Assembly (NCBI GenBank): GCA_002839375.1
Contig: PGXY01000003.1
Location: 281,863 to 345,862 of the forward strand
DNA length: 64,000 nucleotides
Origin: Spirochaetae bacterium HGW-Spirochaetae-1
Lineage (GTDB): Bacteria; Spirochaetota; UBA4802; UBA5550
Reading direction: 5' to 3'
Of the stretch, positions 16,464-57,899 are shown one piece after another (positions within the stretch are counted from its first letter, which is position 1; each line of letters begins with the position of its first letter). The position numbers and the translations under genes were made by a program. Under the pieces are notes generated by a model that was not told the origin of the DNA, searched no databases, and saw only the letters and a list, made by a program, of their open reading frames with translations.

Positions 16464-17225
16464 TTACTGCCTCTCGGGCCTGTTACCATTGACGTCGCCG
16501 ATGCTCTTATAATCCTTGCCAAGATAAGCCCTCTGCACGTCGTTATTATTGAGCAGTTCGTCGGCTGATTCCTCCAGCATTATCTGTCCCGTTTCAATGA
16601 CATATCCCCGGTCCGAAATATGAAGCGCGGCCCGGGCATTCTGTTCCACGAGCAGTATGGTGTTGCCGCGTTCTCTCAGTTTCACGATGATGCTGAAAAT
16701 ATCCTTTACGATGAGGGGAGCGAGTCCCATGGATGGTTCATCGAGCATTATGAGTTTCGGCCGGGCCATGAGCGCACGCCCGATGGCCAGCATCTGCTGC
16801 TCTCCACCGGAAAGCGTTCCTGCCAGCTGTTCCTTTCGTTCCAGGAGACGGGGGAAGAGAGAGTATACGTTATCCAGCTCTTCACGGATAAGCCGCCCTT
16901 CCCTTTTTCTCCGCAGCGGGTAGGCCCCCAGCAGGAGATTCTCCCGCACGGTCATGGTGCTGAAGACCTGGCGGCCTTCGGGAACAAGAGAGCAGCCCGC
17001 CGCGACGATGTTTTCCGGACTTGCCTGGTGCAGTTTTCTCTCTTCAAAGAGAATCTCGCCCTCCCTGGTTTTTATGATGCCGGCAATGGTCTGCAACAAT
17101 GTCGTTTTACCCGCTCCATTGGCACCGATTATGCTGACAATTTCACCGGGATTGATGTGCATTGAAATCCCCTTCAGCACCCTGAGCTTGCCGTATCCCG
17201 ACTGAAGGTTCCTGACTTTAAGCAT
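16464..17225 (-). CDS. livF: Branched-chain amino acid ABC transporter ATPase LivF
   Basis: One of two ATPases of a LIV-type importer. The 253-residue protein has Walker A GANGAGKTT (about 34-42), ABC signature LSGGEQQ (about 138), Walker B LIMLDEP (about 158) and an H-loop region LLVEQNA (where LivF has Gln-Asn in place of His). Overlaps the end of livG by 8 bp. Length is slightly above E. coli LivF (237). Confidence 0.93.
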   Translation of the reverse strand: MLKVRNLQSGYGKLRVLKGISMHINPGEIVSIIGANGAGKTTLLQTIAGIIKTREGEILFEERKLHQASPENIVAAGCSLVPEGRQVFSTMTVRENLLLGAYPLRRKREGRLIREELDNVYSLFPRLLERKEQLAGTLSGGEQQMLAIGRALMARPKLIMLDEPSMGLAPLIVKDIFSIIVKLRERGNTILLVEQNARAALHISDRGYVIETGQIMLEESADELLNNNDVQRAYLGKDYKSIGDVNGNRPERQ

Positions 17226-54665: not shown

Positions 54666-56183
54666 ATGCTATCCCAGGCAGTTTCACTGGCCCTGCAGGG
54701 CATTGACGCACAGATAATCGAGATCGAGGTGGATATCATCAAGGGGCTCCCCAATTTCACCATAGTGGGGCTTCCCGATTCCACCATCAGGGAATCAAAA
54801 GACCGCATCCGATCCGCCGTGGAAAACAGCGGCTATACCTTTCCTCCCCACAACTTCGTGGTAAACCTGGCCCCGGCCGGTTTTAAAAAACAGGGAGCCA
54901 ACTTCGATCTTCCCGTTGCCGTTTCCATCCTGAAGGCAACGGGCCAGATCGAAATGGCCAATGAGATGATCCCCATGGTGGGTGAACTTTCCCTGGATGG
55001 ACGCGTCAAGCCTGTTCGGGGCGTCATATCCATGGCCATTACCCTGTACCGTAAGGGATTCCGTTCCTTCATTGTGCCCTACGAGAACCGCCATGAGGCA
55101 GCGGCCCTGAAGGAAGTAAGCATATATCCCGTAAAAAGCATACATGAAACACTGGAAGTGCTTAACGGCGCCCACGAGCCTTTTATCAGCGATTCCCCTT
55201 CGCCAAGAATGCCGGTCACCATTGATTTCGCCCATGTGCGGGGTCAGGAGACGGCGAAGCGGGCCATGGAGATTGCTGCCGCCGGACACCACAATATCCT
55301 CCTGTATGGGGCCCCGGGTTCAGGCAAGACCATGCTGGCGCGCCGCATTATATCCATCCTCCCGGAACTTTCCCGCGATCAGGCCATCGAGACTACCATG
55401 ATTCATTCCGCCGGGGGAAAACTCACGGGAGAATCGGGCATCATCACCACGCCCCCCTTCTGCGCTCCTCACCACACATCCTCTGACGTGGCCCTCGTGG
55501 GCGGCGGACATATTCCCTCCGTGGGTGCCGTGTCCCTGTCCCATAACGGCGTGCTCTTCCTGGACGAGCTGGTGGAATTCAAGCACCACGTTATTCAGGC
55601 CCTGCGGCAGCCCCTGGAGGATTATGAAATCACCGTGGCCAGGGCCCATGGGTCATTCACCTTCCCGGCCGACTTTATGCTTATCGCTGCCAGCAATCCC
55701 TGCAGTTGCGGTTTTCTTTTCGATAAGGAAAACCGCTGCTCATGCACCCCCCTGCGGATAAAAAACCACTTCCAGAAAATCGCCGGTCCCATTCTGGACC
55801 GCATCGATCTGGAGGTACTGGTAAACAGGGTGGACTATAAAAGCCTTATGGAAAAAGGAAACTGTGAAAGCTCGGAGCGTATTCGGGAGAGAGTGGATAG
55901 AGCCCGGGGCATACAGGCCCACCGATTTAAAGGAAACGCCACGCGGTATAATTCGCGCATGACCACCGAAGAAACCAGGGAACACTGCCGACTCGATACG
56001 GATTCTGAAAAAATACTTGAGCAGGCCCTGAAGTCACTGCGGCTCACGGCGCGCACATATTACAAAATTCTGAAAATCAGCAGAACCATTGCCGACCTCC
56101 ATGAATGCCCCGTAATAGAAAAAAGCCATGTTCTCGAGGCCCTTTCCTATAAAAATCTTCAACGGAACTATGAGCACTACTAA
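54666..56183 (+). CDS. comM: ComM/YifB-family AAA+ helicase (magnesium chelatase-like)
   Basis: Hexameric branch-migration helicase that aids integration of transformed DNA in naturally competent bacteria. The 505-residue protein has the N-terminal Lon-protease-like fold (about 1-170; SQAVSLALQGIDAQIIEIEV, PNFTIVGLPDSTIRESKDR split), AAA domain with Walker A GAPGSGKTMLA (about 217-227), Walker B LFLDEL, and a C-terminal zinc-like Cys cluster (CSCGFLFDKENRCSC). GGAGG lies 6 bp before the ATG. Found widely, including in bacteria not known to be competent. Confidence 0.94.
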   Translation: MLSQAVSLALQGIDAQIIEIEVDIIKGLPNFTIVGLPDSTIRESKDRIRSAVENSGYTFPPHNFVVNLAPAGFKKQGANFDLPVAVSILKATGQIEMANEMIPMVGELSLDGRVKPVRGVISMAITLYRKGFRSFIVPYENRHEAAALKEVSIYPVKSIHETLEVLNGAHEPFISDSPSPRMPVTIDFAHVRGQETAKRAMEIAAAGHHNILLYGAPGSGKTMLARRIISILPELSRDQAIETTMIHSAGGKLTGESGIITTPPFCAPHHTSSDVALVGGGHIPSVGAVSLSHNGVLFLDELVEFKHHVIQALRQPLEDYEITVARAHGSFTFPADFMLIAASNPCSCGFLFDKENRCSCTPLRIKNHFQKIAGPILDRIDLEVLVNRVDYKSLMEKGNCESSERIRERVDRARGIQAHRFKGNATRYNSRMTTEETREHCRLDTDSEKILEQALKSLRLTARTYYKILKISRTIADLHECPVIEKSHVLEALSYKNLQRNYEHY

Positions 56184-56423
56184 AAAAGACATTCTACTGT
56201 TGCATAATTGCTACACTGTCCATTAATTCCACACTTTCTATAACAAAAACGCTCTCACCTTCCAACAAAAACAAGCATTATGTCTCATTAAAACATTAAT
56301 ATTAAAAATAAAACAGTCTATGCGTATTAATTCTTTGTTTTTAGTAACCATTTTTCATGCTTTAACTATTTATTTACAAAAAATTAACTCAATCTTTATC
56401 TTTACAAGCAAAGAAATAGCATT
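56184..56423. other. AT-rich gap upstream of the sigma-54 promoter
   Basis: I see no gene here. It is very AT-rich with short frames but no ribosome site; if the sigma-54 promoter is real, this is where an enhancer-binding activator would bind, though no clear inverted repeat stands out. Confidence 0.5.
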
Positions 56424-56440
56424 TGGCACAGAACATGCAT
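56424..56440 (+). promoter_or_regulatory. rpoN site: Sigma-54-type promoter
   Basis: TGGCAC (56424-56429) and ATGCAT (56435-56440) place GG and GC exactly 10 bp apart, the -24/-12 layout of RpoN promoters; only one base of the TTGC -12 core differs. Transcription would begin about 56450, giving a leader of about 50 nt to the ATG at 56502. Confidence 0.6.
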
Positions 56441-56501
56441 ATTATATCTCCTATACAACTTATTCTGAAAAAATTTATTTCCAAATATACGGAGGAATAC
56501 C

Positions 56502-56720
56502 ATGAATCAGAGAAATTCCATGAATCAGGCTTACATCAGAATTGGCGAGGAGACCCTGAACCTTGCTCAGTTCATCACAAAAGTGAAAAATTATGATGTT
56601 GAGCTGACCAGAGGAGAAATTCTGTCAGTCATCAGGACTGCCCAGGAATTAAGCCCAGCTGATGTTTCTCAAATTCTCAACACTGTCAAGCAGACCTACC
56701 ACGTCAACATGTCGCTCTAA
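56502..56720 (+). CDS. Small protein of unknown function behind a sigma-54 promoter
   Basis: A 72-residue soluble protein with a mixed alpha/beta look (YIRIGEETLNLAQFITKVKN, GEILSVIRTAQELSPADV), no membrane segment or Cys. GGAGGAAT ribosome site 6 bp before the ATG at 56502 (a second Met follows six codons later). It stands alone: AT-rich gap upstream, a large hairpin downstream. I do not recognise the family. Confidence 0.7.
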   Translation: MNQRNSMNQAYIRIGEETLNLAQFITKVKNYDVELTRGEILSVIRTAQELSPADVSQILNTVKQTYHVNMSL

Positions 56721-56752
56721 AAAGCGTTCAGTTTAAACCGCTAAAACATAAA

Positions 56753-56801
56753 GGACACAGGTGTTCACAGGAATCAATATCCACGTGAAGCACTTGTGTC
56801 C
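56753..56801 (+). terminator. Long hairpin after the 72-residue gene
   Basis: GGACACAGGTG-TTCAC (56753-56768) pairs with GTGAA-G-CACTTGTGTCC (56785-56801), 16 pairs with one G-U and one bulged G, around a 16-nt loop. It lies 33 bp after the stop. No T run follows, so it may be a stabiliser, a Rho-linked end or part of a small RNA rather than a simple terminator. Confidence 0.55.
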
Positions 56802-56927: not shown

Positions 56928-57899
56928 TCAGGCTTTAATACAGCGTACGGAGTGACCCGGGGATATTTCCCGCAGGACAACAGCATCGCTGAGGCATTCT
57001 TCTGTCCTCAGGTGACAACGGGGATAAAACACGCAGCCCTGGGGAATCGATGAAATGGTGGGAACAATACCCGGTATGGTCCTGAGGCGGTCCCTGGTTT
57101 CCCCGACACGGGGAATCGCCTCGAAAAGCCCCCTGGTATAGGGGTGCCCGGGGTTGGAGAAAATATCCCCGGTTTTCCCTGTCTCGACAATTTCCCCGGC
57201 GTACATAATGGCAATATTGTCGGCGATATTAGCTACAATCCCCAGGTCATGAGTGATCAGCAGGAGAGACATGTTCTTTTTCTGCTGAATTTCAAGAAGG
57301 AGGTCCAGGATCTGGGCCTGGATGGTTACGTCCAGGGCCGTGGTAGGCTCATCGGCAATGAGCACCGATGGTGAGGCCGAGAGGGCCATGGCTATCATTA
57401 CCCGCTGCCGCATGCCGCCGGAAAATTCATGGGGATAGGAGTCAAAACGCTTTTCCGCATTGGGGATCCCCACGAGACCCAGCATTTCAATAGTCAGGTC
57501 TCTGGCATCTTTCTTCGCCGCACCGGAATGAAGCATGATACTTTCCGATATCTGAAAGCCTATGGAAAAAACAGGATTGAGCGAGGTCATGGGCTCCTGG
57601 AAGATCATGGCGATGTCCTTACCCCGTATGGATCTCACCTCTTCACTGGTCATAGCGACGATATTTCTTCCGCCGTAGATGACTTCTCCCGAAATAATTT
57701 CGCCCGGCGGGCTCACAAGCCGCAGGATAGAAAAAGCCGTGACTGACTTTCCACAGCCCGATTCACCCACCAGCCCCAGGGTTTCACCCCGGGCCAGGGA
57801 AAAGGATACATCGCGCACGGCCATGACTTCCCTTTCGGAAAGATGAAAGGTCACGCCCAGGTTCCGCACCTGTAGTAATGTATCGATGGCATTTGACAT
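56928..57899 (-). CDS. Oligopeptide/dipeptide ABC transporter ATPase (OppD/DppD type)
   Basis: A 323-residue peptide-importer ATPase with Walker [10 protein letters not shown] (about 44-52), signature FSGGMRQRV (about 161-169), Walker [12 protein letters not shown] (about 185), switch His in LITHDL (about 219), and the C-terminal Cys cluster typical of OppD-type proteins ([15 protein letters not shown], a [4Fe-4S]-binding region). No permease or binding protein is nearby, so it is an orphan component; it probably serves a transporter encoded elsewhere. Last gene of glyA-MPE-93aa-oppD. Confidence 0.9.

Follow-up and report, generated by a model that had tools for sequence, protein, structure and literature searches.

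In a stretch of 64,000 nucleotides from the genome of Spirochaetae bacterium HGW-Spirochaetae-1 (the window), sequence comparison points to a short gene that is very probably a real gene under the control of a switch. We consider it probable that this gene forms a unit by itself, encodes a small soluble protein and is switched by RpoN through a conserved promoter and a remote element, with NtrX as a moderately likely activator. The RpoN reading follows from the presence of the promoter in 21 of 21 homologues, against 2 of 6000 shuffles, and of the remote element in 20 of 20 loci. An earlier note on this DNA had described a self-contained unit composed of a sigma-54-type promoter, a ribosome-binding site, a 72-residue frame and a long 3′ hairpin, preceded by an AT-rich activator region. 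The spacing, ribosome site, frame and hairpin were all located where the note had placed them (Table 1); comparison supports the promoter and the activator region, and it does not support the hairpin as part of the unit.

Table 1. Features of the small gene and its surroundings, in window coordinates.
Feature	Position	Strand	Basis and remarks
comM/yifB-like Mg-chelatase-family ATPase	54666..56183	+	Pfam Mg_chelatase 9e-85; upstream neighbour, outside the unit
Putative upstream activator site TGTTGCATAATTGCTACA	56198..56215	+	Conserved in 20/20 loci with enough upstream DNA
AT-rich spacer, activator site to promoter	56216..56423	+	56184-56423 at 26% G+C
Sigma-54 -24/-12 promoter TGGCACAGAACATGCAT	56424..56440	+	TGGCAY-N5-WTGCW in 21/21 homologues; shuffles 2/6000
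Ribosome-binding site GGAGG	56491..56495	+	Read from the sequence
18-bp tandem duplication	56492..56527	+	Doubles the ribosome site and the start, so that translation may begin at 56502 or 56520
Small protein, 72 residues (66 from second start)	56502..56720	+	Conserved family; no Pfam, NCBIfam or solved-structure match
Hairpin	56753..56801	.	Probably terminates the oppD operon on the other strand; may act in both directions
Oligopeptide-ABC-transporter ATPase, oppD/dppD type	56928..57899	-	Pfam ABC_tran and oligo_HPY, synteny; convergent neighbour, outside the unit

The GG (56425-56426) and GC (56437-56438) of the promoter are separated by exactly 10 bases, as had been claimed, and transcription would be expected to start near position 56450. 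The spacing alone means nothing, because the bare GG-N10-GC pattern occurs 515 times on the two strands of the window. The fuller pattern TGGCAYN5WTGCW occurs twice, against 0.27 expected, and the second site, at 17120, sits inside an open frame (L058). When homologues with the same promoter were sought in related genomes, this fuller pattern was found upstream of all 19 of the first homologues and of two more distant ones. Among dinucleotide shuffles of the 300-bp regions around the promoter, which covered 20 loci (L007 was too short), it appeared in only the two cases given above. Outside the box, the family-weighted mean information between -60 and -3 was 0.40 bits per base, compared with 2.0 at the TGGCA/TGC positions, a value that is fixed by the search pattern itself, so that the shuffles are the fair test. 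Might the protein nevertheless be a housekeeping product of an ordinary sigma-70 promoter, with the TGGCA...TGC box a coincidence? Sigma-70-like sites do occur on the plus strand, such as TTTACA-18-TATCTT at 56373-56402 (three found, 2.1 expected), but the recurrence of the box in every homologue at such a low shuffle frequency, in the company of a remote element, makes this very improbable.

The remote element follows the comM stop at 14 bp and precedes the -24 element by 226 bp, and it is the only match in the window at up to two mismatches (0.03 expected). In the homologous loci, the 18-base element TGTTGYAAAAWTGATACA is found 182-240 bp before the -24 element, these counts excluding L007, whose contig extends only 16 bp upstream of the promoter. 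All 20 loci score at least 14 of 18, and 16 of them reach 16 or more, although these scores are not independent, the consensus having been built from the same loci after discovery by eye. In 18 loci, none of 200 shuffles matched the best score, and in the two weak loci, L004 and L005, 16 and 9 of 200 were as good; the 20 loci are related, five of them coming from one genus. A right-hand arm, CAACA, which closes a 37-bp dyad, is present in 13 of the 20, against 0.14 expected. A comM-like gene precedes the small gene in most of the named loci (synteny). In L038 and L039, where the preceding frame is AraC-like and not comM, the element is nevertheless kept (by eye), so that it travels with the gene. 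A search of the 20 other gene-bearing genomes at up to one mismatch yielded 18 matches, and the reversed pattern yielded none; 14 of the 18 lay upstream of the small gene, two of these in G033. At this threshold, five of the 20 genomes contained no match, and G005 and G016 were matched only elsewhere. Comparison thus establishes the conservation of the element, and its role as an enhancer is putative. The AT-rich stretch of 240 bases upstream of the promoter, the G+C content of which contrasts with 49% window-wide, had been suggested as the activator region, a suggestion that the conserved element at its far end supports. Near the promoter in this family, L002 and L003 have a second palindrome, ATTATGTCACATAAT, some 40 bp upstream of the -24 element, with variants elsewhere at other distances.

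How might such a switch operate? We envisage that an enhancer-binding protein would dock on the remote element, that looping of the DNA would bring it to the RpoN polymerase, and that ATP hydrolysis would then open the promoter. The small gene would be silent until the signal arrives, giving a tight off/on response from a monocistronic unit; it has no co-transcribed partner gene. It is moderately likely that the activator is NtrX, which NtrY would phosphorylate. As for the trigger, nitrogen or envelope stress is a guess by analogy with the roles of NtrYX and RpoN in other organisms.

The presence of RpoN was checked, and this genome encodes it (Sigma54_DBD 1.2e-56 at C6:131820), as do 43 of the 46 genomes of the order, this one included. 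The three genomes without RpoN (G004, G007 and G013) are also without the small gene, a co-occurrence that is weakly consistent with the proposed control. Which protein, then, would act as the activator? Activators were compared in this genome and in six others, five with the small gene and one (G021) without it. Strong Sigma54_activat proteins number four in this genome, two in G022 and three in G025, and the RpoN-contacting loop of our four reads GAFTGA in three and GAFTDA in the fourth. NtrX is the only type that G022 and G025 share with this genome, and it is present in five of the six gene-bearing genomes examined, out of 21 that bear the gene; in G010, NtrX was not found, and the contig ends inside ntrY. 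Five of the six regions keep the order rpoN-hpf-hprK-ntrY-ntrX, the exception being the broken one of G010; hpf, hprK and ntrY are presumed identities, assigned from their sequences. In L186-L191, the cluster is followed by frames that we take to be uracil-DNA-glycosylase-like and priA-like. G[AS]FTGA is kept in all six NtrX proteins compared, and the core of their last helix, GIERTNLHRKI, is the same in every one. G021 likewise encodes NtrX but does not have the small gene, so the presence of NtrX alone predicts nothing. On these sequence data, we would place the chance that NtrX activates the small gene at roughly even or a little better.

The alternative is that the promoter and the protein are as described and that the activator is a protein other than NtrX, of the GAF, PAS or another receiver type, perhaps varying by family. 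Three observations lean towards it. First, the element is unlike published NtrX sites: CAAN2-5TTG occurs in two of 20 elements and GCAN9TGC in none of 20, patterns that are alphaproteobacterial and may not apply here. Second, G010, whose assembly contains no NtrX, has a weaker element. Third, many gene-bearing genomes encode a GAF-type activator related to the one in this genome. Against this, the GAF type, which we had favoured at first and then rejected, has absent or distant orthologues in six genomes that carry the small gene (G022, G025, G029, G031, G034 and G037); G022 and G025 have no activator except NtrX in common with this genome; and the near constancy of the element from family to family points to a single activator. 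We regard an activator other than NtrX as rather unlikely.

What does the switched gene encode? Six bases separate the GGAGG from the start of the 72-codon frame. The earlier note's frame stands as an open reading frame from the ATG at 56502 to 56720, but its start requires amendment, since in the alignment the homologues begin at the second of two ATG codons, 56520, which gives 66 residues. The six residues before it are seen in this genome only and were added by the tandem duplication, whose copies (56492-56509 and 56510-56527) are identical at 16 of 18 positions. A single-protein search found homologues in 19 of 59 genomes, and an alignment-based search found the family in 21 of the 46 genomes of this uncultured Spirochaetota order, with one copy in each. 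The named member genomes are all metagenome-assembled, 14 of them titled Spirochaetota, Spirochaetes, Spirochaetia or Spirochaetae and one titled uncultured bacterium. Among 344 genomes sampled across the phylum, nothing was found beyond the order except seven marginal matches (E 2.9e-5 to 6.9e-4), which cover 32 positions within frames of about 700 amino acids and were taken as unrelated. Eight columns are invariant, all in the C-terminal half (L35, T36, R37, P52, L59, K63, Y66 and N69). Four N-terminal cysteines (C-x2-C-x5-C...C) occur in most families of the order and are absent from the window's own family; they may hold a metal or sense the redox state. Comparison shows that the protein is under purifying selection: dN/dS was 0.03-0.29 in seven of 10 pairs from one genus, dS being saturated in the remaining three, and G014 and G016 differ by no amino acid (dN 0, dS 0.14).

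Scans of 19 members against Pfam and against NCBIfam gave nothing above the curated cut-offs, a PHROGs scan of the small protein gave nothing above its cut-off, and the best match among the sequences of solved structures had an E value of only 0.16. No relative was found in the viral contigs searched, and a literature search returned no description of either the protein family or the remote element. The structural model of the window's protein, of moderate confidence (pLDDT 80), contains two short strands and three helices, and that of a homologue of the cysteine form was also moderate (pLDDT 69.5). In fold comparisons of these two models, no match reached significance: the best Foldseek E values were 2.6 and 6.9 and the best Z was 4.8; the latter belonged to a Rev1 C-terminal-like fold, which we rejected because such a score is ordinary for a helical bundle. 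The protein might perhaps bind a partner through its strongly conserved pair of C-terminal helices and the tail LTR...P...L...K..Y.IN.

The hairpin that had been assigned to the unit is a real fold (-28.5 kcal/mol, z -4.97, none of 200 shuffles as good), and its plus-strand end, ATGTCTGCATCC, is without a T tail, as had been noted. Its minus-strand end, TTTATGTTTTAG, bears a T-rich tail, and the hairpin lies 127 bp past the stop of the opposing oppD-type gene. Because the T-rich side is on the minus strand, the hairpin is probably the terminator of the opposing operon, a reading based on the sequence TTTATGTTTTAG; it may serve both strands. A terminator scan (loop of 3-8, at least five T in eight) found none in the region. 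The hairpin has one copy in the genome, and the 3′ hairpins of the homologues are unrelated to it (by eye), so its proposed membership in the unit is not supported. These observations bear also on the possibility that the transcript is itself a functional small regulatory RNA that ends in the long hairpin, the frame being incidental. A stable hairpin and a short monocistronic unit would be in keeping with an RNA of this kind, but the conservation of amino acids across families, with the dN/dS values above and the unchanged pair G014/G016, speaks for a protein; furthermore, an Rfam scan of the whole window gave no match, and the hairpin is neither repeated in the genome nor T-rich on the strand of the gene. 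We consider the RNA explanation very improbable.

How many other genes would respond to the RpoN switch? Exact sigma-54-like matches number 25 in the whole genome, against 16 for the reversed pattern, and only three of the 25 are intergenic with a gene following: those before the small gene, an inositol-phosphate-synthase gene and an SCP2/glycyl-radical-enzyme gene. The last of these promoters, TGGCACAATTATTGCA (L070, G000:C6:96430), precedes a gene that joins SCP2 and pyruvate-formate-lyase-like (glycyl radical enzyme) domains and is divergent from a PAS-type RpoN activator; the remote element was not found there (13 of 18, with 68 of 200 shuffles as good). Of 16 element-like sites in this genome, two have a good -24/-12 promoter downstream, namely those of the small gene and of an inositol-phosphate-synthase-like gene; the wider pattern used here was loosened after the latter site had been seen, and its 16 matches compare with eight for the reversed control. 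The element and a sigma-54 promoter were observed before inositol-1-phosphate-synthase-like genes at L067 (G000:C4:493618-493844) and, in G001, at L113/L193. This enzyme is encoded in two of the 46 genomes of the order, both with element and promoter, and in the G001 orthologue an element with the CAACA arm lies 162 bp before TGGCATAAATATTGCA.

Relatives carry four element matches away from the small gene, and a promoter follows at two, L127 and L128. These mark a second tiny gene, seen in G005 (L128:1066-1379, with the gene at L128:1243-1379) and in G016 (L127), where the contig stops within it. In G005, its product has about 45 residues and one hydrophobic stretch, and the divergent frame is presumably a pcm-like protein-repair methyltransferase. 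A third match, L130, is inside a reading frame. At L131 (G005), on the minus strand from 1518, a near-perfect 36-bp dyad, TGTTGTATAATTGATACATGTATCAAAAATACAACA, stands immediately ahead of a series of short frames, with no good -24/-12 promoter within 450 bp.

In most relatives, the shared activator element has no clear target across the genome other than the small gene, whose protein is therefore probably the main output of the RpoN signal. We tentatively suggest, as a possibility well short of our general reading, that in this order of Spirochaetota almost the sole target of an NtrYX-RpoN switch may be a new small regulatory protein, binding a partner through its conserved C-terminal tail, with a few additions in particular lineages (the second tiny membrane protein and inositol-phosphate synthase). 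If true, this would be a sigma-54 circuit with little more than a single output, and the protein would represent a new class of small regulator that acts post-translationally. The claim that the small gene is regulated, as read from conserved sites, is strong. The gene offers a concrete entry point to the role of sigma-54 in uncultured spirochaetes, and the element and promoter should allow the rest of the circuit to be traced by sequence alone.

The class of mechanism is already known, and no description of the protein family was found in the literature and databases searched. The system resembles other sigma-54 promoters with remote enhancers in its GG and GC 10 bp apart, its remote element, and its RpoN and G[AS]FTGA activators; it differs from them in that the product belongs to an undescribed family of small proteins and the activator is a candidate only. 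The inactivating factors of cyanobacterial glutamine synthetase are small partner-binding proteins under a nutrient-responsive regulator, and the likeness to them is one of logic only, no sequence match having been found here. A membrane-kinase/response-regulator pair, NtrY/NtrX, beside rpoN resembles the NtrYX systems (PMC9223101, PMC7240162); the alphaproteobacterial NtrX sites given there, CAAN2-5TTG and GCAN9TGC, do not fit the element found here. Another parallel is the EbpA-RpoN pathway of the spirochaete Leptospira interrogans, which has very few proven targets, its activator binding upstream of the promoters (review PMC12655853). The pathway proposed here would likewise be a spirochaete RpoN pathway with a very small target set and an activator site upstream of the promoter. 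EbpA, a protein with two GAF domains, controls amtB and two genes for lipoproteins (PMC12655853), whereas the candidate here is the response regulator NtrX and the target is a small soluble protein.
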